IMG/VR virus record: IMGVR_UViG_3300044712_000383 | Location: 1 to 49,155 of that record | Reading direction: 5' to 3' (one strand) | Length of the DNA stretch: 49,155 bases | Origin: a virus | Shown here: piece after piece, positions 19,966-47,220 of the stretch | How the letters are laid out: each line of letters starts with the position of its first letter | How positions within the stretch are numbered: the first letter of the stretch is position 1 | Notes under the pieces: model-generated | Database searches by the model: none | What the model was told of the DNA's origin: nothing | Seen by the model: only the letters and a program-made list of their open reading frames with translations | Translations under genes and position numbers: made by a program

Positions 19966-20085
19966 CTATTCCTTTTTTCCTTTCTGTGGAGTCTCGTCAA
20001 AATATCCGGGTGGTAATCCTAATTCAGATGCCATCTGGTCGCGTTCTTCTTCTGTCTGCATTTCGGGCATAATGTAAACGGTCAT
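19966..20085 (-). CDS. 39-residue acidic small protein
   Basis: The ATG overlaps the MuF stop (ATGA). It encodes MTVYIMPEMQTEEERD and a short GLPPGYFDET segment with a basic tail. It is the last gene before the terminator. Function unknown; such peptides sometimes follow MuF genes. Confidence 0.6.
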   Translation of the reverse strand: MTVYIMPEMQTEEERDQMASELGLPPGYFDETPQKGKKE

Positions 20086-21635
20086 AATTTCTTCCCAAGA
20101 ATGAATTCGTAATATTTGAGCACGTCATCGCTTAATGTGATGCCCGCCCTTTGTGCCGCGTACACTTCGGCGACAAATTCAAGGCCATTTGTGGCGGCAT
20201 ACTTGCTGACTTTGGTAGCAATCTCTTTGAATTTAGGATTGGTGCTGTTGAGGTTGCGCAAAAAAGATTCTTTATCGACATTGATTTCACGCTTACTTAA
20301 AACATGGCCCAACTCGTGATATACTACATGGTTTGGGTCAGGGGAAGACTGCCATCCAGAATCATAAGCCTTCTTTTGATAAGCGGCCATGTTACCCCAT
20401 GCGGCAGATGCGGATCTTGACGAGTTCAGTGCAATTCCGTTGGAATCACCCATTGCAAGCACTTTTCTGCCCTTAAAATTATGGAGGTTTATCGGGACTC
20501 CATCTATGTCCTTGGGCATAGTTTTGAGGTTGCTATAATCGGCTGATGCGCTGCCTTGGCCCCCGCCGAACACTTTTTGAAATGCCGACTTGTTACGTGC
20601 TTCCAGTTCCTTCAGGTCGTATACCACGCCTGCTCTATCGGTGAAGCGGTCAATCTTCAACCCTTCCTTGAACAGTTTGGCGCGGGTAGCCCCGAGGATG
20701 TCTTTCTGCACGTCCGCGTCCTGCCCCCTGAGCCACTTGCCGAACGTGATGTCTGCTGCGACAGGGCCGTCTTTTGATGCCCTGGTGGATGCGGGCATTT
20801 CGTCCATGTCGATGCCGAGTTCCTTCCAGGATTTAAGCACGGGGATTTGAAAGGATCGGCACCGAACATGCCTCGGGGGGAGTGGCCCTTGTCCTATCGG
20901 CCACTCCGTGCCACTGAGGGATGCGCATTGGATCGTCGTGCGGCTGTCGAGAGTGGCGAGGAATTTCCACTTACTCACGACGGCGCTGTTCTTTTCGAAC
21001 GTGAGCTGCACCGCCTGGTTGCTCGTATGATTGACAACAGTGCGGACGATTGCCTCTGCATTTCGGCGGTCCTTCTCAAAGATGCCGTCCGTGTAGCGTG
21101 AGGCGCGGGAGCCCTGCAGTCGGCGCACCATCTGCATTGCGGTCTCCCCTTCCACCATCCCCAACCGTATCGCGCCCCGAATCGCTTCCTCTTTGCCCGC
21201 CGCCAGAGAAGAAAATATCTCTTCAAGAAGCAGCTTCTTGTCAGCCCCGACAGTGACCGGCGCTTTACTCACAATCGCCGCCAACTGCTCCACGGTCGGC
21301 TGCACGATGTTGAACGTAACCGGCGCCTGAGCGGTCAGCACCGCCGCCGTTGCTGCAGCCTCTGCTGTCCCGAAGTCCAGCATCGCCGTTTTAAGTTCGT
21401 TGTGCGCTTGCGTGTATGCCTCTCCGGTCATCTCCCGGATCTCTGCCAGCAGTTTCTTGAGCCGTGCAGCGGTGAACGTTCCATCTTCGCCGCGAGCGAG
21501 GATCTTCGCCAGGATCTCCTTGTCGGCATCGTTCAGCAGCGCGAGGATGTCCCGCACTACCCGGGAGGCGTACCGCCCCAGGTTGACCTGGTGGCGGATG
21601 GAGTAGTCAAGGAGTTGTTTGTCGAGGTTGGTCAA
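20082..21635 (-). CDS. MuF-type minor head protein with C-terminal zincin domain
   Basis: A 517-residue protein. Residues about 150-280 match the Mu gpF / SPP1 gp7 head domain (RTVVNHTSNQAVQLTFEKNS... WKFLATLDSRTTIQCASLSG... PLPPRHVRCRS). The C-terminal part (about 360-517) contains HELGH at 440-444 and a following helix EFVAEVYAAQ with Glu486 or Glu490 as third ligand, a zincin signature. Fused toxin-like domains on MuF proteins are known in other phages. Here it may be injected with DNA or may cleave head proteins during maturation. TTG start with GGAGGC five bases before. Confidence 0.8.
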   Translation of the reverse strand: MTNLDKQLLDYSIRHQVNLGRYASRVVRDILALLNDADKEILAKILARGEDGTFTAARLKKLLAEIREMTGEAYTQAHNELKTAMLDFGTAEAAATAAVLTAQAPVTFNIVQPTVEQLAAIVSKAPVTVGADKKLLLEEIFSSLAAGKEEAIRGAIRLGMVEGETAMQMVRRLQGSRASRYTDGIFEKDRRNAEAIVRTVVNHTSNQAVQLTFEKNSAVVSKWKFLATLDSRTTIQCASLSGTEWPIGQGPLPPRHVRCRSFQIPVLKSWKELGIDMDEMPASTRASKDGPVAADITFGKWLRGQDADVQKDILGATRAKLFKEGLKIDRFTDRAGVVYDLKELEARNKSAFQKVFGGGQGSASADYSNLKTMPKDIDGVPINLHNFKGRKVLAMGDSNGIALNSSRSASAAWGNMAAYQKKAYDSGWQSSPDPNHVVYHELGHVLSKREINVDKESFLRNLNSTNPKFKEIATKVSKYAATNGLEFVAEVYAAQRAGITLSDDVLKYYEFILGKKL

Positions 21636-23756
21636 CTACTGCCTCCACCGCCGAGGCCATGCGTAAACAGCCGATTTCACCGCCTCTTGATTTACTCCAT
21701 CGTCACAGTAATATTTCAGCGTCCGCCCAGGTTTGACCGTCAACGCCCCTGAATAGGTGAGCGTAGGAGCCGAACCGTCGAGGGAGTATCGGATTGTCCC
21801 ACTCTCGTTGCAGGAGAGGGCGACGGTCTGTTTTGTGGCGTAACGTCCGGCGGCTACGGAGGGGGTGGTTGATAGTGATGCAGCCGGTGGGCTCTCTGCC
21901 CCGGTCACAGAATAAACATGAATCAATGGATACGATGTGTTCAGAAATCCGGTACTGTCCGCGTTTGCAGCAGAGATAAATACTCTCTGATTCGCTGAAT
22001 CGTATGCAGCGCCGAGCAACCGCGCACCGCCGATGACGTGCCTCAACACAGGTTCTGATGACGAGTGCGAAAATTGCAAAGGGTATGCGAGAGTGACAGT
22101 ATTATCGCTGATTGCCCTGATTACGTTGTACTCGTAGTTAGACTGGCCCGAATTTATCTGTATTCCGTCGCTCACAATCAGGGCCGATGCATCATCGACA
22201 GTCATTGTCAATGCGCCCGCGTTTGGAGAATTGGTAAGCGACACAGTGACATCAGCGGGCTTGTCCGGTACCGGATACGGCATCCGTGAATAATCATCGG
22301 TCAGGTCCCATACTGCATAGGGCTCGATCTGCCACGGCTCCTTGGTGTCATTGTAGACTGCCACCAAATCCATCGCATCATAGGCCCACACCATATAACG
22401 ATACGGATACCCATGAACCCCTTTGCTGCTACTTCCCATCGCCGGATCGTAGCAACACTCATCGTTGCCCGTGCCGCAATACGGATCGCTGCCGCACGTC
22501 GAGGGGTTGCCAATATGCGTCGATCCGCAGGACCACCCTGTTGTGTCGCTCGGATTGCTGTTGTATTGAGCCGTGAGCCAGTCAACTATTGTCGATGCGT
22601 TGGCTATGTGGTCTTTGATCCACGTCCCGGTTCCGTAACATGCCCGCCCGATAGGTTGCCTTCCGAAAAACAGGACCGATCTCGTGCCAGACGGAAAAAC
22701 CACACCTGTGATTTCCGTCGCCTGAGAGTACGTTTTGCTGTAGTAAGAGTCTGCGCTGGACGTGTAGGCTCCCAATGTTGACCGCACATCGGACGGCACC
22801 ACCCCGTTCCACGTTCCCAGGTTATCCCATGCCCCGCCCGTGCCGAGTTGATACAGGACGTTTGCGGATTGATCCAGATAGTATGTGTCGTCCTGATCTG
22901 TTGCGATGTTGCCCGGAGCACCATGCCCACGGATAAAACCCGGACCGCCCAGGTAGTAAACAAGTGGGGATGCCGGGACCGGATCGGCTTCCGTGCCGTG
23001 GTCGCCAATATCGGCAGGGCTGAACGCATGAGCAGAGGGGCCGAGGGAAGTGCGTTGAATGATTGCCAGTGATGCCTGTCCGGTAAGTGCCGTGTGCCCG
23101 CCGAAATATGATCGCCACTCGGTAGGGATACTAGCCATATAACCGCCGACAAATCCCGCCGAGTTGACGCCTGAATCAGAGATCGTGCCTCCGACGGTAT
23201 ACATCCCGGATGCACCAGCGGATGAGCTGTAATCGGCAGATGCCTTGAAATGCGATCTGTTTGCCGTGGGTGTGCCGGAGTCGTAAACCACATAGGTTGA
23301 TCCATATAGCGTGCTACCAGACACAAGCGTCCCGCCGATCAACACGCCATGTCCTATCAGCGTAGAGCCGCTGGTGCATTTGTTCGCGCCACTTACCCCG
23401 ACATAACACCCATAGCCACCCGTTATTTCTATTGGGTTCAGCAGCACGCTGGCTGTCAATAAATCGGCGAGGGTCGCGGACTTGCTGAACGTTGCCGGAA
23501 CTTGAACTTTTGCCAGGTATTGCGCGGCGGCACTGCTGTCTGTCGTGAGGTTGAGTCCGTTGTCAGTGGGGTCGTAAGACATCGCCCGTCCGGAGGCGTT
23601 TGCAAATGACCCCCCCGCGCCGGAAAGGGTGCCATGCGGTAGCTTGAACGCACCCTGATAGACAAGCTGAGATCGCGTCAACAAAGGGTAGTCTGGCGGG
23701 GCCGCGTATGCCGCACCGGTAAATACAAGCAGAATTATGGTTAATAAATATCTCAT
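21636..23756 (-). CDS. Exported protein with C-terminal chitobiase-like domain
   Basis: A 706-residue protein beginning MRYLLTIILLVFTGAAYA, a classical Sec signal peptide with cleavage after AYA. The last 70 residues fit a CHB_HEX_C-type Ig domain (VALSCNESGTIRYSLDGSAPTLTYSGALTVKPG). The middle is Gly/Ser/Tyr-rich and cysteine-containing (CGSTHIGNPSTCGSDPYC), with a propeller-like section (ARLLGAAYDSANQRVFISA). The ATG overlaps the preceding stop (ATGA), and the next gene is MuF. It is in a phage head operon, where exported proteins are unexpected. Possible head spike fibre or conversion factor. Confidence 0.7.
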   Translation of the reverse strand: MRYLLTIILLVFTGAAYAAPPDYPLLTRSQLVYQGAFKLPHGTLSGAGGSFANASGRAMSYDPTDNGLNLTTDSSAAAQYLAKVQVPATFSKSATLADLLTASVLLNPIEITGGYGCYVGVSGANKCTSGSTLIGHGVLIGGTLVSGSTLYGSTYVVYDSGTPTANRSHFKASADYSSSAGASGMYTVGGTISDSGVNSAGFVGGYMASIPTEWRSYFGGHTALTGQASLAIIQRTSLGPSAHAFSPADIGDHGTEADPVPASPLVYYLGGPGFIRGHGAPGNIATDQDDTYYLDQSANVLYQLGTGGAWDNLGTWNGVVPSDVRSTLGAYTSSADSYYSKTYSQATEITGVVFPSGTRSVLFFGRQPIGRACYGTGTWIKDHIANASTIVDWLTAQYNSNPSDTTGWSCGSTHIGNPSTCGSDPYCGTGNDECCYDPAMGSSSKGVHGYPYRYMVWAYDAMDLVAVYNDTKEPWQIEPYAVWDLTDDYSRMPYPVPDKPADVTVSLTNSPNAGALTMTVDDASALIVSDGIQINSGQSNYEYNVIRAISDNTVTLAYPLQFSHSSSEPVLRHVIGGARLLGAAYDSANQRVFISAANADSTGFLNTSYPLIHVYSVTGAESPPAASLSTTPSVAAGRYATKQTVALSCNESGTIRYSLDGSAPTLTYSGALTVKPGRTLKYYCDDGVNQEAVKSAVYAWPRRWRQ

Positions 23757-25039
23757 TGTTTTTGCATCCTGAAATGACTGATTGCCGTGTATCCAGACCC
23801 ACCACTCGCCATGCCCAGTTTGACGTATGCGGTTGTGGTTGAAAACGTCACGGTCGCACTGGCGTTGTTGTTTACCCATGCGGTCGTACTCGTTCGCAAC
23901 GTCCCGCTTGCGTCGTACCATTGCCCAGTGCTGGTGCCATTTGAGCCGCTGGTGTAATCGAGCGTAAGCACTGCGGTTGATGTGTCCAGTACCTGTAAAT
24001 ATTGATAGACGCGGCTCGCGGCTGGATCTCCGAGGGCTAGCCAGATTTTGTAAGTACCAGCAGATGGTAGGTCGATTTGGAATGTCTTCTGAGTACCGTT
24101 GAGCGTCCTGCCACTCCCTGCTATCCTCCTGTCATAGGCTGAGTTTGTATCCGCGCCCGAAGCGTTGGCTGACACAAATCCAAAAGTCGCGCTTTTTGCT
24201 GTGGTCGGATAGGTGGTGCCGGGAAGTACATACGTTTCATACGTCCCGTCCGTGACATAGCCTGACGAGTTGCGGAAGTTAAACCCGATGTCCGTCCATC
24301 CCGCCGCAACCGTCGTACTCGTAAACGTATCGCTCACGCCGCCAATGGTTACAGTGGTGTTGACCGCAGTGGAGTTACTTCCGGACGACGTATGCCGCGC
24401 CCTGACCGTATCGCCATTACTGACCGTTCCGGCATCAGATGTGAACGACCCGCTTGCGTTTTTGTCGTATGTGCCGCCCGAAACTGAGATATTTGCCGTG
24501 GTGCCAATTCCCGCGACCGTAATTGCAGCAGAGGTGATGGTTGAGGACAAAGCTACATCTGTCTGATCGGTAAACGTGAACGCATCAGGGGTGCTATCAC
24601 CCGCCGCTATCCCCGTCCCGGTCACGCTCGCATACAGGTTGTCCAGTTGGTTCGACAGGATAACCAGTGTGCCGGTGTAGGAGGATGCCGCCGTCGGGCC
24701 GAACTCCACCCGCTTGTTGCAGGATGCCTTCGCCGCCAGGGTTGAGCCACAAGGAGAGGTTGCGGAAGTCGCGTTGCGGAAAGCAGCACTTGAGAATGTG
24801 CCGAATGACAGGTCGGTAAGAGTCGCGTTTCCGCTGTTGGTCAACGTGAAATCAGCCGTGCGCTTGGAACTGGTGCTGACGTTGCCGAAGGCGTGACTCG
24901 CAGGGGAGATGCCGAGGATGGGCTTTAGGTCAACCCAGCGGCCCCCACCCACCCCAACCCCTACACCGAACCCGACAAACGTCGCCCAGGCCTGCACAGC
25001 CACCAGGAGCAACGCAAATGTGATAAGTAGTCGCTTCAT
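23753..25039 (-). CDS. Exported protein with choice-of-anchor D-like domain
   Basis: A 428-residue protein starting MKRLLITFALLLVAVQAWA, a clear Sec signal peptide. Residues about 45-150 fit an ASPM-SPD2-Hydin / choice-of-anchor D Ig domain (SPASHAFGNVSTSSKRTADFTLTNSGNATLTDLSF). The C-terminal 190 residues form a carbohydrate-binding-like beta sandwich (IDLPSAGTYKIWLALGDPAASRVYQYLQV). GAGG lies five bases before the ATG, with overlaps to both neighbours. It is exported by prediction and probably surface-binding. Confidence 0.7.
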   Translation of the reverse strand: MKRLLITFALLLVAVQAWATFVGFGVGVGVGGGRWVDLKPILGISPASHAFGNVSTSSKRTADFTLTNSGNATLTDLSFGTFSSAAFRNATSATSPCGSTLAAKASCNKRVEFGPTAASSYTGTLVILSNQLDNLYASVTGTGIAAGDSTPDAFTFTDQTDVALSSTITSAAITVAGIGTTANISVSGGTYDKNASGSFTSDAGTVSNGDTVRARHTSSGSNSTAVNTTVTIGGVSDTFTSTTVAAGWTDIGFNFRNSSGYVTDGTYETYVLPGTTYPTTAKSATFGFVSANASGADTNSAYDRRIAGSGRTLNGTQKTFQIDLPSAGTYKIWLALGDPAASRVYQYLQVLDTSTAVLTLDYTSGSNGTSTGQWYDASGTLRTSTTAWVNNNASATVTFSTTTAYVKLGMASGGSGYTAISHFRMQKQ

Positions 25040-25046
25040 CGTCACC

Positions 25047-25364
25047 TCAATATATCGCCACGATTGATGTTGCTGTCGTTCCCGTTGCCAGGACTCGCTT
25101 CACCATGATAGGCAGCAGCCCTGATGCGTTTTTAATCAGCACCGAGGATGTGTCGTCTGCCATAATCACCGTGATGTCACCGTCCACGCCGATGTATAGG
25201 GCGCGGGGCACCGCGGCCAGATCAGCCGTGTCCGAGGGGGTCACAGCCACCGCTTTGCGTGCCGGCGCGTTGATGGTCAGGACGCGATCCTTGTAGTAGT
25301 CATCACCGGCAAACGCCACACCCGCAAGTAACAGTATCATCAGCACTAGAAACAGCTTTTTCAT
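25047..25364 (-). CDS. Exported spike-base-like protein (Rcc01079-type)
   Basis: A 105-residue protein. Residues 20-105 match, from memory, the head spike base family of gene transfer agents and related phages (VTPSDTADLAAVPRALYIGVDGD... LLPIMVKRVLATGTTATSIVAIY). Unlike that family as I know it, it begins with MKKLFLVLMILLLAGVAFA, a textbook Sec signal peptide. ATG overlaps the portal stop (ATGA). It could be the base for the two exported proteins that follow. Confidence 0.7.
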   Translation of the reverse strand: MKKLFLVLMILLLAGVAFAGDDYYKDRVLTINAPARKAVAVTPSDTADLAAVPRALYIGVDGDITVIMADDTSSVLIKNASGLLPIMVKRVLATGTTATSIVAIY

Positions 25365-26806
25365 TGTTGTGCTCCTTGTTCGTCTTTGTTTGGATCTGCC
25401 TTTCCTGCACCCGGATCCTGCTGCTGAGTAAACGATGCCAACGGCGGGCCCTCGTCGGCAATCCGCGCCGCGTCTTCTTCTGCATCAAATTCCGGCGCAA
25501 GTTCTCCACGCCATTTCAGGTTCTCCACCCATGCCTCGCGTGAGATGTCGCCCAGTGCGCGGCCTTTCGTTACCTCTGCCATCCCTGCGTCGGTGCCTCT
25601 ACGTGATGCGAAATCATCATTGACGTGCGCCTCTCCAGCATTCTTTGTCGGCTGCCCCATCATCTCGGCGAAATACTGGAACAGCAGTTCGATGGAGTCG
25701 CTGAATCCTTTCGCCACGGCCTTGAGCCCGGCGTTCGTATCCTCTGAATCGAGGGCGGCTGCAGTCGCTGTGACCTTCCCTGCGTTTTCGACGCGGAGGT
25801 TGACGCCTGCGGTCTCGATGCGGGATTCGATGGCGGCAAGAGCATTCGCAGCCAGTGTGATGCCCGCTCCTGTCGGTTCCGTGTAGGCGAATTTCGCATC
25901 TGGGGCGCTTGCCTTCAGTACCTTGCCCGGGCCGACTTCTATCTGGTCCTCAAGCTGCACGCCGGTCGCCGTCAGCATCCCGAAGCACTGCATGGACAGG
26001 GCGTGGGCAAACTCGCTCTTTGTCTGCCAGTGTTCAAGATTGCTCTCTGCCACATTCTGAAACGGGGGCTCCCCTTCCATGAAGCCCGTGCGGTTAGTGT
26101 AGAAGGGCACGAGGGAGATCTCCCGGAACGTGGTCACGCCCTCATCGTGCAGATACCACGTCTTGCGGTCCTGCTCCTGCCGGTACAACTCCCACCGCAC
26201 CACGCCGTTTTCCCGATACCACACCCGCACCTGCTCAATGGTAACGTAATCCCATCCGTCAGGCACGGATAGCACCTCGCGGATCCGCACCCGGGTCAGC
26301 GTGTCCACGCCGCCTATCATCTCGGAGACGATTTCAAGGACTGATGACGGCTCGATGTGGATAGCGTACGGCCTCACGCCCAGCGCCTTCTCATCTGCCA
26401 GCGTCTGCACGTTCTCAACTCTCGGCATATCGGCCATGACGTATGAGATGCCATCCTGAAACGCCGTCTTTGCCACGTCGAGGATGAACGGGTCGAGGGC
26501 GCGGCCTTGGCGGTCGATGTTCTCAATGAGGGCTTCGATGTCAGAGGGGAGGGCGTCAACCTGGATCTCTTTGCTGAACAGCTTCCCGGCGGCTTTGTCA
26601 ATTGCGAGACCTACGAAATTGTCCAGGAAGGTCTTCTGCAGGCGGGTCTTGTAAACGCCGTCAGATTCGGCGGGGTGCTTCGGGAGGTATGTTTGCCCGG
26701 CGTTGCGCATGGCGAAGGTGCCGCCCATGAGGGAACGGACAAGGGCGCGCTTTTCTTCCAGTGCTGCGACGCGGGGGGAGGGGTCTGCTACGGTTTTTTG
26801 CTGCAT
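25361..26806 (-). CDS. Portal protein (DUF4055-like)
   Basis: A 481-residue portal protein. RTRLQKTFLDNFVGLAIDKAAGKLF-type N-terminus, PYAIHIEPSSVLEI, EPPFQNVAESNLEHWQTKSEFAHAL, and IETAGVNLRVENAGKVTATAAALDSEDTNAGLKAVAKGF (tunnel-loop region) fit the DUF4055 portal family. The C-terminus is acidic and Gln-rich. AGGAGC precedes the ATG. It forms the dodecameric DNA channel at the capsid vertex. Confidence 0.85.
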   Translation of the reverse strand: MQQKTVADPSPRVAALEEKRALVRSLMGGTFAMRNAGQTYLPKHPAESDGVYKTRLQKTFLDNFVGLAIDKAAGKLFSKEIQVDALPSDIEALIENIDRQGRALDPFILDVAKTAFQDGISYVMADMPRVENVQTLADEKALGVRPYAIHIEPSSVLEIVSEMIGGVDTLTRVRIREVLSVPDGWDYVTIEQVRVWYRENGVVRWELYRQEQDRKTWYLHDEGVTTFREISLVPFYTNRTGFMEGEPPFQNVAESNLEHWQTKSEFAHALSMQCFGMLTATGVQLEDQIEVGPGKVLKASAPDAKFAYTEPTGAGITLAANALAAIESRIETAGVNLRVENAGKVTATAAALDSEDTNAGLKAVAKGFSDSIELLFQYFAEMMGQPTKNAGEAHVNDDFASRRGTDAGMAEVTKGRALGDISREAWVENLKWRGELAPEFDAEEDAARIADEGPPLASFTQQQDPGAGKADPNKDEQGAQQ

Positions 26807-32754: not shown

Positions 32755-32960
32755 TATTTATCACCTCCAAACAATCCCGGCTGCTCCGCTTCCTCTTTCA
32801 GCCGCTTCTGTAACGCCTCTTGCTTCTTCGTCATCCCCGACGCGCCATGTTCGAGGCATGGCCCTAGTCGCCTATCGTCTACCCTGTGCATAGTACGGCG
32901 GTTGCAGGTCGGGCAGTATGCTAGGACTTGAGTTGTGCTGCGGGTGTAGTGTTGGGTCAT
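32754..32960 (-). CDS. 68-residue zinc-finger-like protein
   Basis: N-terminal half has CPTCNRRTMHRVDDRRLGPCLEH, a CxxC...CxxH metal site; the C-terminal half is a charged helix (KKQEALQKRLKEEAEQ) ending PGLFGGDK. It starts inside the first 71-bp repeat. The PGLFGGD end resembles a clamp-binding or SSB-type tail, but that is weak. Confidence 0.6.
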   Translation of the reverse strand: MTQHYTRSTTQVLAYCPTCNRRTMHRVDDRRLGPCLEHGASGMTKKQEALQKRLKEEAEQPGLFGGDK

Positions 32961-33027
32961 CCCATCTCCTTTATCGCACTCATACCACGGGTTAGAGCGG
33001 GCGGGCCGATCAACCTGAAGGCGTTAT
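32957..33027 (-). repeat. 71-bp intergenic element, copy 1
   Basis: Matches 33746-33816 at 68 of 71 positions. It contains a bulged palindrome (gggttagagcgg ... ccgatcaacc) and, on the minus strand, ends with ribosome site AAGGAGATGGG and the start codon of the next gene. In an operon of touching genes these elements make the only longer spacers. Confidence 0.85.
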
Positions 33028-33749
33028 AAACTCATCACTTCGCAGAGAATTCCGCAATCGCCCACGATAGGCGGTTCGTGACGGCCTCTTTCCGGTTCTA
33101 GTTCGTCCAGGAAAACCCCGTTAATACAGGTTGCCCCCGCGATTCGCTCCATTGCTGCCCGTTGCGCGAATACTTCGGGGAAGTCCTGCCGTATTTTGTT
33201 CCAATATCCCATACCGCCTTTTACACAGCCGACACAGTTGTTGTTGTGGTATCCAAGTTCGTACATGCCGGGGCGACGTATGCCGGACGCTTTCAAAATT
33301 TCGTGCGCCTGTTCTTTCGATAGCCGCCGCTCGATCAACGGAAATACGTGTTCATGGTTCGACTGGTTTTCCACAATCCTCTCCGCCCTGTGTCGCTCGT
33401 TGTAATCCAGCCCCCACACGTACCGAAACGGCCCCGCATTCTCGTATTCCCACTGTTGCCGCACCTGGCGCTTTAGGTAACGAGTGCAACTTGCCCCGCG
33501 CGGCCCGTTGACGTACACGCCAGAGGGATATGCTGCCGTTGCCATGATTGCACCCTCAACGCTCTTGTATGGACTCTGTAATATCGTCACCGGCTTCCCA
33601 AACCATACCTCACAGTCACGAACAAACCGCATTGTGTCCGGGTGCTGGTCGTCAATGTGTGTGTAAATTATCTCGTCTATCTGGTCTATCATCAGTTTTG
33701 TTGCCACTGCCGACGATACTCCAGCGGAGAACCATGATACTGTTTTCAT
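33024..33749 (-). CDS. PAPS-reductase-like / adenine nucleotide alpha-hydrolase protein
   Basis: A 241-residue phage protein of the PAPS reductase/ATP pyrophosphatase type. The PP-loop is WFSAGVSSAVA (about residues 6-16), and a C-terminal cysteine motif NNCVGCVKGGMGYWNKI is typical for phage versions. These enzymes adenylate or reduce sulphur compounds or activate nucleic acid carbonyls; here the substrate is unknown. DNA sulphuration (DndC-like) or nucleotide modification is possible. It is flanked on both sides by copies of the 71-bp element. Confidence 0.78.
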   Translation of the reverse strand: MKTVSWFSAGVSSAVATKLMIDQIDEIIYTHIDDQHPDTMRFVRDCEVWFGKPVTILQSPYKSVEGAIMATAAYPSGVYVNGPRGASCTRYLKRQVRQQWEYENAGPFRYVWGLDYNERHRAERIVENQSNHEHVFPLIERRLSKEQAHEILKASGIRRPGMYELGYHNNNCVGCVKGGMGYWNKIRQDFPEVFAQRAAMERIAGATCINGVFLDELEPERGRHEPPIVGDCGILCEVMSL

Positions 33750-33816
33750 CCCATCTCCTTTATCGCACTCATACCACGGGTTAGAGCGGGCGGGCCGCTC
33801 AACCTGGGGGCGTTAT
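33746..33816 (-). repeat. 71-bp intergenic element, copy 2
   Basis: This copy has the perfect version of the stem: ggtt-a-gagcgg, loop gcggg, ccgctcaacc, that is, 10 pairs with one bulged A. The minus strand carries the ribosome site and start of the PAPS-reductase-like gene. A degenerate third copy is at 34021-34070. Confidence 0.85.
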
Positions 33817-42125: not shown

Positions 42126-42614
42126 ATGAAAATATTTTTACTGGTTTTTGCGTTGATGATTTCTGCAGGGTGTGCGCCTCACGTAACACGTACCGGTACA
42201 CTCTGCGTTCCCCCGATATCCATTGAAGAGTTTAGCACCTCAGACCCTGTTGAAATAAGAAAAGACGTGGTGGCTCAGATTGAGCCAGGCCTTCGCAAGG
42301 GCATTATCGACTGGATCTGCCAGGACACCGACCTGAAGGTTGATAAAAAATGTGGAGTAACCGACTACATCTTGAATCTAAAACTTGAACGTGTAGACAC
42401 CATGACGAGCGGCAGGGTAGCCCGAACCATACTCGGGACATATACCGCGTCAAACCGGCTCTACAAGCTCACCGTGTCTGGCACTCTGGACAAACCCGGT
42501 GGCGAACATGTGGCCCCTATTCGCGGGGAATCAGACATGAAGCCTCTGGACGAAACCATCAAAGATATCGCGGAAGAAGTCACCGACGGCGTTCAACATG
42601 TCGAATCCCCTTAG
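42126..42614 (+). CDS. Small lipoprotein (prophage A)
   Basis: A 162-residue protein with a lipoprotein signal (MKIFLLVFALMISAGC; lipidated Cys16). The mature part (IEPGLRKGIIDWICQDTDLKV... YILNLKLERVDTMTSGRVARTILG... DETIKDIAEEVTDGV) resembles small outer-membrane lipoproteins of DUF4410 type, as in GNA1162-like families. It lies in the same operon place as the unrelated lipoprotein at 269-712, but overlaps the next gene by 17 bases. TAAGGAG precedes ATG. Confidence 0.75.
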   Translation: MKIFLLVFALMISAGCAPHVTRTGTLCVPPISIEEFSTSDPVEIRKDVVAQIEPGLRKGIIDWICQDTDLKVDKKCGVTDYILNLKLERVDTMTSGRVARTILGTYTASNRLYKLTVSGTLDKPGGEHVAPIRGESDMKPLDETIKDIAEEVTDGVQHVESP

Positions 42615-43158
42615 TCTCAACACCCCCGCCCCGACCAACATCCCGGTGGAGCTGCACCCCGACATGCTGCTGGCGATCAGCTTCATGGACGGGCGCGGAG
42701 CATATGCCAAGCAGGCGGCGGAACTCGCCCGGCACGCCCCCAGGTACGCCTTCAGGGATAACATGCATGTCTGTGCCTTCGGGAAGGATATCGAGGGCGC
42801 TACGCGGGCGCTGGCCATCCTGGACTACATCGGACAGACGCGGGGATGTCATTGCTACACCGGAAGCCCGATGCTGTGGGGCACGGGCAGGGTGGCCGGA
42901 GTGCTGCGCTGCTACGCTTCCGCGCTGAATTGCGATCAGCGGGATGCCTGGTGCTATGTGATCGAGGGCGGGGCGCTTGAGTTCCTGGCGGGGTGGCCCA
43001 TCCGAGAGCTGCCGTGCCGGCGGCTGGTCGGGTACTATTACGGGCATCAGGCGAAATGGAAAGATGTACAGTCGGAACTACAGGCGGCGGCCGTTGATGC
43101 CGGAGTGGAATGGTGCCCGTTCTGGCGGGACAGGATTCGCGGGCTGGTGAAGGCATGA
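42598..43158 (+). CDS. Conserved hypothetical protein linked to integrase (prophage A)
   Basis: A 186-residue homologue of 709-1266. Identical through most of the segment after residue 58; the N-terminal third differs (for example YAKQAAELARHAPRYAFRDN here). The conserved part contains GSPMLWGTGRVAGVLRCYASALNC. The stop overlaps the integrase start (ATGA). Unknown function; conserved linkage to the integrase suggests an accessory role. Confidence 0.7.
   Translation: MSNPLSLNTPAPTNIPVELHPDMLLAISFMDGRGAYAKQAAELARHAPRYAFRDNMHVCAFGKDIEGATRALAILDYIGQTRGCHCYTGSPMLWGTGRVAGVLRCYASALNCDQRDAWCYVIEGGALEFLAGWPIRELPCRRLVGYYYGHQAKWKDVQSELQAAAVDAGVEWCPFWRDRIRGLVKA
42774..43152. repeat. Near-identical segment shared with prophage B, copy 2
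   Basis: Partner of 882-1260. The first 190 bases show no change by eye. The match ends close to the integrase start. Confidence 0.75.
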
Positions 43159-44216
43159 GTATCAGGAAACACCCCACAAAAGGGGACGGCTGGTGGCAGC
43201 TTGATGTTGGGCACGGCGAAAACCGCCAGCGACCGGCATTCGAGGGCACGAGAGAAGAGGCGCAAGAAGTCCACGATGAGCTGAAAAAACTGATTCGGCC
43301 GCCTTCCGCGCATTCGACAAACCCGCGGCTGCACGAAATCGTACCCGACTTTCTTGCCGCCTACAAACATGATCACCTGCAGAAAGGATATGAGCGCACA
43401 ATTTACAGTATCGAGCACATTCAGCGGCATCTGGGTAAGTACTGTCTCATGTCGATTTCTCACGCTCTGGTTGATCGGTATAAAGAGGCCAGGATAGAGG
43501 AGGGAGTGACTCCATCCACAATTAACAAAGAGCTATGCGCCCTGTCCATGCTCCTGAAATGGGCGGTAGAACAAGGGAGGATCGACGAAGCGTTGCGAGT
43601 GAAGAAGTTCCCCTCGAAAATGACAAAAGCTCCCGTGCCGGTCGTGCCGTCCGTGGCGGATGTGGTCAAGATACTCGCGCAAGCCCACCCGCGCCGAAGG
43701 CTGCCCTTACAGCTTATGGCTTTCTGCGGCCTGAGAATGTCCGAGGCGTTGAGGCTCACGAAAGAAGATGTACTGAAGTCCCGGCAGGCTATCATCGTGC
43801 GGGGGAAGGGCAACAAACAGCGGGTCGTCCCGGTGCCGGCGCAAGAAATATGGGAAGAAGTGCTCAAGCGCACAGAATCCGTTTCTGACGGCTTTTTGTT
43901 TCTGAACAAGGCAACGGGAAGGCCGTACCATGATCTACGCGGCACGCTCAAGGAGGCGGCGCGAAGGGCGGGATTTGACGCTCGGATATATCATCATTTA
44001 CTGCGGCACTGGTTCGGGGCGGTCAGCACCGAGCTCGGCATCCCTACGAGGGCAACTCAAATCATCATGGGACACGAGAGCATCAAAACCACGGAAATCT
44101 ATTCCCACGTGACAGCCTCTCACCTGGCAGCGGAAATGGGGAAATGGAAATCCGTGACAAATGATGTCAACAAAAATACCCGCAAAACAAAGCGGGGCAA
44201 AGGTCCGCGACACTAG
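43155..44216 (+). CDS. int: Tyrosine recombinase integrase (prophage A)
   Basis: A 353-residue integrase with Arg194, the RGKGNKQR lysine, His281, Arg284, His307 (MGHES) and Tyr316 in the same positions as the prophage B enzyme. The start overlaps the previous stop. C-terminal 30 residues are basic (NKNTRKTKRGKG). It reads towards the att core five bases after its stop. The last part of the gene holds arm-like sites (gtgacag 44109-44115, gtgacaa 44154-44160, atgtcaa 44164-44170). Confidence 0.92.
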   Translation: MSIRKHPTKGDGWWQLDVGHGENRQRPAFEGTREEAQEVHDELKKLIRPPSAHSTNPRLHEIVPDFLAAYKHDHLQKGYERTIYSIEHIQRHLGKYCLMSISHALVDRYKEARIEEGVTPSTINKELCALSMLLKWAVEQGRIDEALRVKKFPSKMTKAPVPVVPSVADVVKILAQAHPRRRLPLQLMAFCGLRMSEALRLTKEDVLKSRQAIIVRGKGNKQRVVPVPAQEIWEEVLKRTESVSDGFLFLNKATGRPYHDLRGTLKEAARRAGFDARIYHHLLRHWFGAVSTELGIPTRATQIIMGHESIKTTEIYSHVTASHLAAEMGKWKSVTNDVNKNTRKTKRGKGPRH

Positions 44217-44220
44217 CCAC

Positions 44221-44233
44221 GGACTCAAAATCC
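44221..44233 (+). other. Attachment core at the A/C junction
   Basis: Exact copy of the 13 bases at 2329-2341. The two copies delimit prophage A. Flanks here differ from those of the first copy, and neither side is a tRNA half. Confidence 0.7.
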
Positions 44234-44283
44234 AGCCCTGTCACATCAAACCTATTATGAATTCATCTATTTACAACCTGCCG

Positions 44284-44313
44284 GTGACATGCTGTTGACA
44301 TACCCATTGACAT
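44284..44313 (+). promoter_or_regulatory. Integrase arm-type sites, attP P-prime side
   Basis: gtgacat, ttgacat and ttgacat at 44284, 44295 and 44307 repeat the 11- and 12-base spacing of 2392-2421. An inverted ctgtcac lies at 44238-44244. Distance from the core is also conserved (51 bases in both). Confidence 0.6.
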
Positions 44314-44317
44314 ATTC

Positions 44318-44405
44318 GCCGGGATGGTGAAATCAGGTAGACACAGGAGACTCAAAATCTCCCGCCTGTAAGGGCGTGCCGGTTCGATTCCGGCTCCCGG
44401 TACCA
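44318..44405 (+). tRNA. tRNA-Leu (CAA), phage-borne, prophage C
   Basis: An 88-base class II tRNA with encoded CCA. Acceptor GCCGGGA/TCCCGGT with one terminal G-U pair; anticodon arm GGAGA-CTCAAAA-TCTCC (anticodon CAA); long variable arm; T arm GCCGG-TTCGATT-CCGGC. It starts four bases after the last arm-type site. Its sequence differs widely from the tRNA of prophage A although the anticodon is the same. Confidence 0.92.
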
Positions 44406-45195: not shown

Positions 45196-47220
45196 TCAGT
45201 TGTAGTGATCGAATGGCGCCCTGAACGTACCGTCAACATAAGTGCCGCTGGCGGTCACGCAGCGAATACTGATAATGCAATCCAGGGTCATTGATACGGC
45301 TACATGCACGGTTCCGTCTCCAGCCAGCATAATCGGTTGCTGCGTGACCTGTGCGGTTGAGTACGCAACAAATTGCCTGCTGAGGGCCGCAGTAAGAGCC
45401 TTGCTCAAGACCTGCGCAGACCCTACGGAAATATTCGCCCCGGATTTTGTGATAAAGTGAAGGGAGAAAAGTAAATCCGAGCCATTCCGGCGGACAAAAC
45501 TAAGGTACGGCATTGCTGTAAACCGATTCTTGAAATTCGATGCAGCATCAAATTGTATAGGCCATGCCCAATCGTAATGCGCGAGCGCCTGTTCTTTTGA
45601 CGTGCATGACAGGCCCATTGCTTTTGCGATTGTTTCCGCTATCCATTTTTGCCCGTACACATTCGGATGCGCCCCGTCAACCCACATCTGAAGATTTGTC
45701 ACCAACAAATCGGTCCCATCGGTCGGGTATGAAGGGTTATAAAATTCAGTTTTCAGCAACTGGTCGCGAGTCACATAATCAGGCAACGGCACATATATTC
45801 CCCGGGCCTCCATAGCAGCCCGCCTCAGCCCTTTTCTGGCAAGGTTGTCAGGTGTCGCCCACCAGCAGAAATCTGCCACAACCAAAGTCGTATTGTATTG
45901 CAGGCAGTACTCTATGATCCAATCGATCCGTTGTTGAAACGCCGCGTTATAGTCGGCGTCCGAATCGCAGTCCAGGTGATCATTGAAGCCGAGCGCAAGT
46001 ATCAGCATCGAGCCCTTACATGCGCTTTCGATCATCCCCTCCGTTGCCATATACAACCGTCTCCCTGACTGGCTAAAATTCTGGACTACGTTCCCAGCCG
46101 TGGCCGGAGATGTCGTCACAGGCTTTTCGTAGCCGAAACCGCAGATGATTGTCGGCCCGCTGTCGATGGTCACCCTGATAGTGCATTTTCCCGATCCGTC
46201 GTCCAGCATCTGGTAGAGATTGCTCCAGCCAGCCCGATAACTTAGATCAGTTGTCTGTTGAGGCTGCGCTACCCCATTGATCGTGACAGTAAAATTGCCG
46301 CCCCCTGGCTGATACATGAACCAGACCCTGACGTACTGCTGGAATGTTGGTACGACAGCCTCAATGTATGTCCCGGCAGACGTGCCTTCGTAAGCATATC
46401 CCTGGATAATGTCGGTTCCGCCTTCCACTGTAGAGTGGTAGAAATTCCACCCCCCGCCGGATACAGTTATATCGTGCACTTCCTTGGACAATGTCGCTCC
46501 GCTCCCCAGCGTCCCCAGTGGGGCGAAGCCATACCCGCGGTTCCGAGTCTCCACGTTCATCATCCTCTTTAGGATGTTGACCCATCCGTTTTGGTACAAA
46601 TCTCCGGCATATGCGCCGTGGCTGATGCTGTCGCCGAGCACGATGATCGCCCTGTCAATTCCGGGCTCAGTACCGAACCGTGCCGCGCGGTTTTTTACCG
46701 TGATTTCAGCGCCCCTGTTATCATGTGACGGGTTCCGCCCTGCCTTGAATATGTGAGCATCGGCGGTTCGCTTGAAGTATCCGTTGATATACGTGTTGCC
46801 GGTCACCTGCGCGTCAACAAGGAAAGTTCTTCCGCCGAGATCAACCGTTTGCCCTGTGACGCTGGCCTCAAGCGCTGTAAATGCGGCCGTATCGTTCGTA
46901 GCGCCATCTCCTGCCGCTCCCCACCATTCTGGGAAGGGAATGGTGCCTGAAGGGAAGACCACCGACCCGGAACCCGAAAACGCCTGATACCTGCCGAGCC
47001 GAGGCTCAGACTCGAATGTGATGGTATACCCGGCAAGATTTATGAGTCCCCCGGGGCGCAGGTCCAATAACCGGTCGTCAGGCCAAGTCAAATCACCCGA
47101 GAGCGATACTGCCGAATCTATCGCCACGCTCAAATCCCCCGGCCAAGAGAGTGCGGCTGCCGCGGCCAAACTGGCTATTTCAACATGGAAGCCGTTCGGA
47201 TTGAATACTCGTATCGCCAT
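45196..47220 (-). CDS. Tailspike or tail fibre with SGNH esterase domain (prophage C)
   Basis: A 674-residue protein. Residues 95-115 (FPEWWGAAGDGATNDTAAF) are the usual start of pectate-lyase-like phage spikes. From 190 an SGNH hydrolase domain follows: block I VLGDSISHG (Ser198), block III LALGFNDH (about 410) and block V DGAHPN with catalytic Asp/His (about 516-520). The last 120 residues are a beta-rich tip. The enzyme probably removes acetyl groups from host surface polysaccharide during adsorption. Confidence 0.82.
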   Translation of the reverse strand: MAIRVFNPNGFHVEIASLAAAAALSWPGDLSVAIDSAVSLSGDLTWPDDRLLDLRPGGLINLAGYTITFESEPRLGRYQAFSGSGSVVFPSGTIPFPEWWGAAGDGATNDTAAFTALEASVTGQTVDLGGRTFLVDAQVTGNTYINGYFKRTADAHIFKAGRNPSHDNRGAEITVKNRAARFGTEPGIDRAIIVLGDSISHGAYAGDLYQNGWVNILKRMMNVETRNRGYGFAPLGTLGSGATLSKEVHDITVSGGGWNFYHSTVEGGTDIIQGYAYEGTSAGTYIEAVVPTFQQYVRVWFMYQPGGGNFTVTINGVAQPQQTTDLSYRAGWSNLYQMLDDGSGKCTIRVTIDSGPTIICGFGYEKPVTTSPATAGNVVQNFSQSGRRLYMATEGMIESACKGSMLILALGFNDHLDCDSDADYNAAFQQRIDWIIEYCLQYNTTLVVADFCWWATPDNLARKGLRRAAMEARGIYVPLPDYVTRDQLLKTEFYNPSYPTDGTDLLVTNLQMWVDGAHPNVYGQKWIAETIAKAMGLSCTSKEQALAHYDWAWPIQFDAASNFKNRFTAMPYLSFVRRNGSDLLFSLHFITKSGANISVGSAQVLSKALTAALSRQFVAYSTAQVTQQPIMLAGDGTVHVAVSMTLDCIISIRCVTASGTYVDGTFRAPFDHYN

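Follow-up and report, generated by a model that had tools for sequence, protein, structure and literature searches.

By the textbook view, tailed phages put their virions together entirely within the cytoplasm. Among the closest described counterparts of the system considered here is the head spike of the gene transfer agent (GTA) RcGTA, which comprises the base Rcc01079 and the fibre Rcc01080 (PDB 6tb9); the N-terminus of the base attaches it to the capsid, and residues 2–10 of the fibre attach the fibre to the base, a 'five-point star' peptide (IALGLGLGL) plugging it into the base pentamer (PMC7296036). The RcGTA spike fibre binds capsular polysaccharide (PMC10218006). Exported phage proteins are also on record, namely lambda Lom, which has a signal peptide and is encoded between tail genes (PMC12309495), and T5 Llp, which blocks adsorption to infected cells and debris (PMC9586334). 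Here we describe three consecutive late genes (g1, g2, and g3) in IMG/VR record IMGVR_UViG_3300044712_000383, analysed over a stretch of 49,155 nucleotides (hereafter the window). Taken together, the products of g1 and g2 resemble both parts of a whole head spike, and each carries an export signal of its own; these two predicted parts of a putatively sugar-binding spike, together with the g3 protein, appear to be sent out of the host cytoplasm via the Sec pathway.

The three genes lie on the minus strand, as do all cassette features given below, between the genes for the portal and the MuF head morphogenesis protein: g1 (25047..25364; 105 aa), g2 (23753..25039; 428 aa), and g3 (21636..23756; mature part of 688 aa). 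Each N-terminus has a positive n-region, a hydrophobic core of 10 or more residues, and AFA, AWA, or AYA ahead of the predicted cleavage site (g1, MKKLFLVLMILLLAGVAFA, 25308..25364; g2, MKRLLITFALLLVAVQAWA, 24983..25039; g3, MRYLLTIILLVFTGAAYA, 23703..23756). This is the tripartite signal peptide and AxA cleavage site by which a Sec-exported protein is recognised, and all three would accordingly be classed as such. By a simple n/h/c-region score of our own, used in place of SignalP, g1, g2, and g3 rank first to third among all open reading frames (ORFs) of the window, ahead of two real-looking lipoproteins encoded beside integrases (ranks 4 and 5); a strict cut on this score is passed by about 2% of 1069 ORFs from all fetched loci, those of the window and bacterial loci included. 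The sequence-only reading of this DNA had described three consecutive genes with Sec signal peptides between portal and MuF, and both the arrangement and the N-termini that it quoted are as it stated.

That reading also likened the first gene to the head spike base of GTAs, and the likeness is borne out. The g1 protein matches the RcGTA base Rcc01079 (PDB 6tb9) by phmmer (E = 1.4e-10, residues 23–101) and by profile (E = 5.3e-16), and also phrog_12296 (E = 1.5e-22), annotated 'tail fiber protein'; it is thus a member of this family, marked by the sequence VTPSDTAD, of which the other members examined have no signal peptide. GTA-type homologous bases start 21–22 residues before VTPSD, and g1 cut after AFA has 21. 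These 21 residues (GDDYYKDRVLTINAPARKAVA; 25245..25307) share homology with the N-terminal arm through which the RcGTA base binds its capsid. When the g1 N-terminus was slid along 14 homologous arms, the sole positive register was at residue 20 (mean BLOSUM score +19.4), every other register scoring -7.7 or lower; shuffles averaged -17.8, with 0 of 20000 reaching +19.4, and the first 13 residues alone gave p = 0.00075. Only from residue 20 does the arm align gap-free, and this is both the residue directly after the predicted AFA cleavage site and the start residue of export-less homologues. Cleavage of g1 at the predicted site would therefore restore, at 21 residues, the arm with which the RcGTA base holds on to its capsid.

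The product of g2 appears to be the matching fibre. Cut after AWA, it begins TFVGFGVGVGVGGG, in which five hydrophobic residues are spaced by glycines, and the nine residues VGFGVGVGV at this predicted mature N-terminus (24950..24976) correspond to the RcGTA star. Mature g2 has an alternation score of 9/9, like the published RcGTA peptide, a value that, among 1321 other ORF N-termini, only 1 reaches; the motif is rare anywhere, and in g2 it takes the N-terminal position only with the signal peptide removed. A similar but weaker start is frequent in genes that immediately follow export-less bases (e.g., MSGIGLGLGLG in L054 and L127), which suggests that a star-like start may be general to genes following spike bases; several of these N-termini score no better than 5–17% of background. 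Behind the star, g2 encodes a choice-of-anchor D/HYDIN-type Ig domain with two cysteines (C97 and C107; 24647..24919), for which choice_anch_D scores above the NCBIfam cut-off and HYDIN Ig above the Pfam cut-off, and an Ig-like domain (24260..24613) common to non-exported phage fibre-like proteins (L039–L050).

The likeness to the RcGTA head spike thus extends over nearly the whole base, including the capsid arm, and to a neighbouring fibre gene that starts, after predicted cleavage, with an alternating hydrophobic-glycine star. Unlike RcGTA, however, the window has Sec signal peptides on both parts, a base gene in the portal–MuF interval, a third exported gene, and a P22-coat-like capsid protein, and the g2 body (choice_anch_D and Ig-like domains) has no demonstrated kinship to that of Rcc01080. 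Base homology, capsid arm, and an adjacent star-starting fibre gene would place g1 and g2 with the GTA-type head spikes; cytoplasmic assembly without a signal peptide, which is a trait of the known GTA-type members rather than a formal criterion, is not what their N-termini predict. We therefore regard the putative window spike as one that probably works like a head spike, without filing it as an ordinary GTA-type member.

An ordinary spike would nevertheless result if nothing were exported, either because the hydrophobic N-termini are retained or because g1 is translated from an in-frame GTG at codon 16 (25317–25319, minus strand), four residues ahead of the arm, to give a cytoplasmic base. 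This would agree with the cytoplasmic nature of all other spike bases examined. However, there is no obvious ribosome-binding site before the GTG, and g2 lacks any comparable start close to its star; three canonical signal peptides stand in a row, with two more at the same place in a related phage (L062); and an uncleaved signal peptide would bury both arm and star. We consider absence of export very unlikely. That each of the two functional ends sits immediately after a predicted cleavage site would be difficult to account for were the signal peptides without function.

Base homology, arm register, star peptide, signal peptides, operon position, and cassette nature are all read from the DNA; from these we infer export, cleavage, spike formation, and capsid loading at lysis. 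We propose that g1 and g2 are GTA-type spike parts that have acquired cleavable Sec signal peptides, and that g3 is a third exported partner or adhesin. The three proteins would be made late, together with the head genes, and exported via Sec, with their signal peptides cleaved; this cleavage would do two jobs, freeing the base arm for the capsid and the fibre star for the base. The exported proteins would fold in an oxidising compartment, as the even cysteine numbers in the mature parts of g2 (two) and g3 (ten) may indicate, and a spike of five copies of the jelly-roll base (g1) and one fibre (g2) would form outside the cytoplasm. Once lysis mixes the two compartments, the spike would bind the capsid vertices, with cysteine-rich g3 as partner or adhesin. 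That the base still meets a capsid is argued from the retained arm. We hold this scheme to be a real possibility, at somewhat short of an even chance. In its strongest form, the scheme has a tailed phage with double-stranded DNA making one defined appendage of its capsid outside the cytoplasm, with base and fibre passing through Sec, signal peptidase creating capsid arm and fibre plug, and the spike being fitted at lysis; in this form it is more tentative still.

Several points weigh against this proposal. Tailed-phage heads are assembled in the cytoplasm, and we are aware of no phage described as adding its head spikes from the outside. Conservation of the arm is uninformative should the signal peptide have been gained only recently. 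The g1 protein has no cysteines and therefore needs no oxidising compartment; the cysteines of g2 and g3 are themselves only suggestive of one, since the phage's large tail protein has twelve. The g3 protein has no star peptide and is no recognised spike part, so it falls outside the two-part spike, and the sequence-only view of the three genes as one structure holds for g1 and g2 and fails for g3. The exported pair of L062 was considered as a second base and star fibre and rejected (no family match; star score of 3). No signal peptide was found on other spike bases, either at 37 viral-contig loci or at the readable ones among 29 places in 24 of 398 Pseudomonadota genomes, and the named-phage matches to g1, as listed, begin at query residue 21 or later. 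A scan of the whole viral collection for signal-peptide-bearing bases (start MK, then TP[ST]D[ST][AT]D at the right distance) gave 32 matches and no second exported base, with the limits that the pattern misses bases starting otherwise (e.g., MR) and that the window's own close records were possibly left out. Since the other spike bases examined have no signal peptide, export is not needed for spikes in general, and that of the window is the only exported spike base known to us. The earlier suggestion of a capsid spike assembled from the envelope side accordingly gains from the matched base/fibre pair and from cleavage that would restore arm and star, with secreted decoys and other surface structures remaining as competitors. 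Its statement that no such system has been described stands, on the weak evidence that no exported head spike was found in the open-access literature.

The third gene is an orphan apart from a C-terminal CHB_HEX_C_1 domain (21675..21854; 2.9e-12); no relatives of g3 were found in phages, plasmids, viral contigs, PDB, or 299 Pseudomonadota genomes. The domain matches named earlier for g2 and g3 are thus borne out (choice_anch_D, with HYDIN Ig, in the former and CHB_HEX_C_1 in the latter). The coding start of g3 is at 23756; the longest ORF, from 23921, adds 55 residues ahead of the signal peptide. Single-sequence structure models of g3 (predicted local distance difference test, pLDDT, 31.7) and of the first exported protein of L062 (pLDDT 38) were useless and were not used.

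The cassette is bordered upstream by the portal gene (25361..26806; DUF4055, phrog_145) and downstream by the MuF gene (20082..21635). The sequence-only reading had all three genes joined by ATGA overlaps; this is true of portal/g1 and g2/g3, and not of g1/g2, separated by a 7-nt gap, or of g3/MuF, where the TAG stop of g3 abuts the TTG start of MuF. MuF is extended at its C-terminus by about 150 residues that include a YHELGH zincin-like motif, with only a weak Peptidase_M90 match; the 359-aa MuF of L065 lacks this extension. Four relatives of the portal were found at 54–86% identity (L062, 86%; L065, 59%; L064, 54%; and L063, which is cut off inside the portal gene). The MuF start overlaps the portal stop directly in L065, and MuF is the next gene on that strand in L064; because portal and MuF adjoin in these relatives, the cassette can be regarded as an insertion, or plug-in. 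The portal gene of L062 ends with the same AAGGAG stretch and ATGA overlap as in the window and is followed by one signal-peptide gene (MKKVFLIMAIMMLATMAYA) and then a second (MNMKRILFTLFLALFAVPSWG), inside which the contig ends, before any third gene or MuF. Neither inspection nor family search relates the mature parts of this pair to g1 and g2; the second member has segments in common with phage fibres. Between L062 and the window, therefore, position and signal peptides recur and the cargo changes.

Such an insertion between genes that adjoin in relatives is characteristic of morons, and the three genes could be cargo for lysogenic conversion, supplying the lysogen with surface adhesins or glycan-binding proteins that have no role in the particle. 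Domains of the types choice_anch_D and CHB_HEX_C belong to exported bacterial proteins, and the matches in g2 and g3 would suit such a function, as would the difference in mature content between the window and L062. Lambda Lom likewise is an exported protein from an extra gene in a late operon (PMC12309495). Against this, no promoter-like or same-strand terminator-like site was found within the cassette (by a scan for the sigma-70 consensus only), and its starts are coupled to late genes; furthermore, two of the three window proteins look like virion parts, g1 and g2 forming a matched base/fibre pair that goes beyond generic cargo. A moron-type role thus seems rather improbable.

Fibre-like proteins with signal peptides also occur elsewhere. 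Contigs found via the L062 fibre (L090–L092) contain, in late regions, runs of signal-peptide genes of which several encode fibre-like proteins, located in L091 behind tape-measure-sized and tail genes and in L092 behind tail genes, the context in L090 being unassigned; one 737-aa protein in these runs resembles a pectate-lyase-type tailspike by eye. These contigs were rejected as instances of the same system, since their exported fibre-like proteins occur with no spike base. Homologous fibre segments in L079, L082, L084, and L085 belong to proteins with ordinary phage-type N-termini. Fibre-like proteins that are exported may therefore make up a larger group that has drawn little notice, and the window offers the clearest case because anchor and fibre are both recognisable.

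The same comparison bears on the possibility that the spike parts and g3 serve as an exported decoy, or receptor blocker, coating surface glycans, whether on infected cells, on lysogens, or on the debris left by lysis, such that progeny are not lost on coated surfaces and related phages cannot adsorb; the parts would have been borrowed from the virion and would no longer enter it. Fibre bodies behind signal peptides in L062 and L091, with ordinary N-termini on their homologues, look as if an export signal had taken the place of the anchor to the virion. Capsular polysaccharide is bound by the RcGTA fibre (PMC10218006), and receptors of this kind would be occupied by a fibre that is exported; T5 Llp is an exported protein that blocks adsorption to infected cells and debris (PMC9586334). 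The window proteins resemble Llp in being phage-encoded, exported, and potentially able to act on the phage's own receptor; Llp is, however, a small lipoprotein, whereas two of the three window proteins are large and soluble-looking, and their genes stand in a late operon. Expression with the late head genes would be late for a superinfection block, and g1 keeps its capsid arm in full register, which is needless for a pure decoy unless the signal peptide is a recent gain. We consider a decoy unlikely, although it is the main rival of the exported spike and less improbable than moron cargo.

The genomic setting is that of a temperate tailed phage. Within the window, a complete prophage of about 42 kb lies between two copies of tRNA-Leu(caa), each preceded by an integrase gene; the two integrase–tRNA pairs (1218–2542 and 43110–44405) are 41.9 kb apart, with blocks up to 98% identical. 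The tandem arrangement continues on either side with parts of two further prophages, inside which the record ends. No host DNA flanking the prophages was recognised in the record, and the export reading assumes a diderm host. Late genes on the minus strand encode small and large terminase, portal, the three signal-peptide proteins, MuF, scaffold, a P22-coat-like capsid protein, connector proteins, tail terminator, tape measure, and a large tail protein. Given the tape measure and the phage's own tail genes, this is a tailed phage to which the three signal-peptide genes are extra. In each integrase region, a small lipoprotein gene lies upstream (269–712 and 42126–42614; MKKLLVVLALLVAGC and MKIFLLVFALMISAGC); the mature parts of the two lipoproteins are unrelated by eye, and both are possible superinfection-exclusion genes. 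Other features include a 71-base direct repeat (96%) around a 241-aa ORF in the early region (32957–33027 and 33746–33816) and, in the right-hand neighbouring prophage (45196–47220), a GDSL-lipase-like tail protein gene adjoining one for a GH19-like endolysin.

If the spike proposed here is indeed built outside the cytoplasm, a head spike whose N-termini work only after signal-peptide cleavage would break the rule of cytoplasmic assembly for one appendage, and L062 and, more loosely, L090–L092 would add to the phages whose fibre-like proteins cross the envelope. Alternatively, the phage would be secreting its receptor-binding spike for use as a blocker. In both cases, a part of the virus would possibly be finished, or used, outside the cytoplasm, and a search for signal peptides on spike and fibre genes may lead to a wider group of exported phage fibres.

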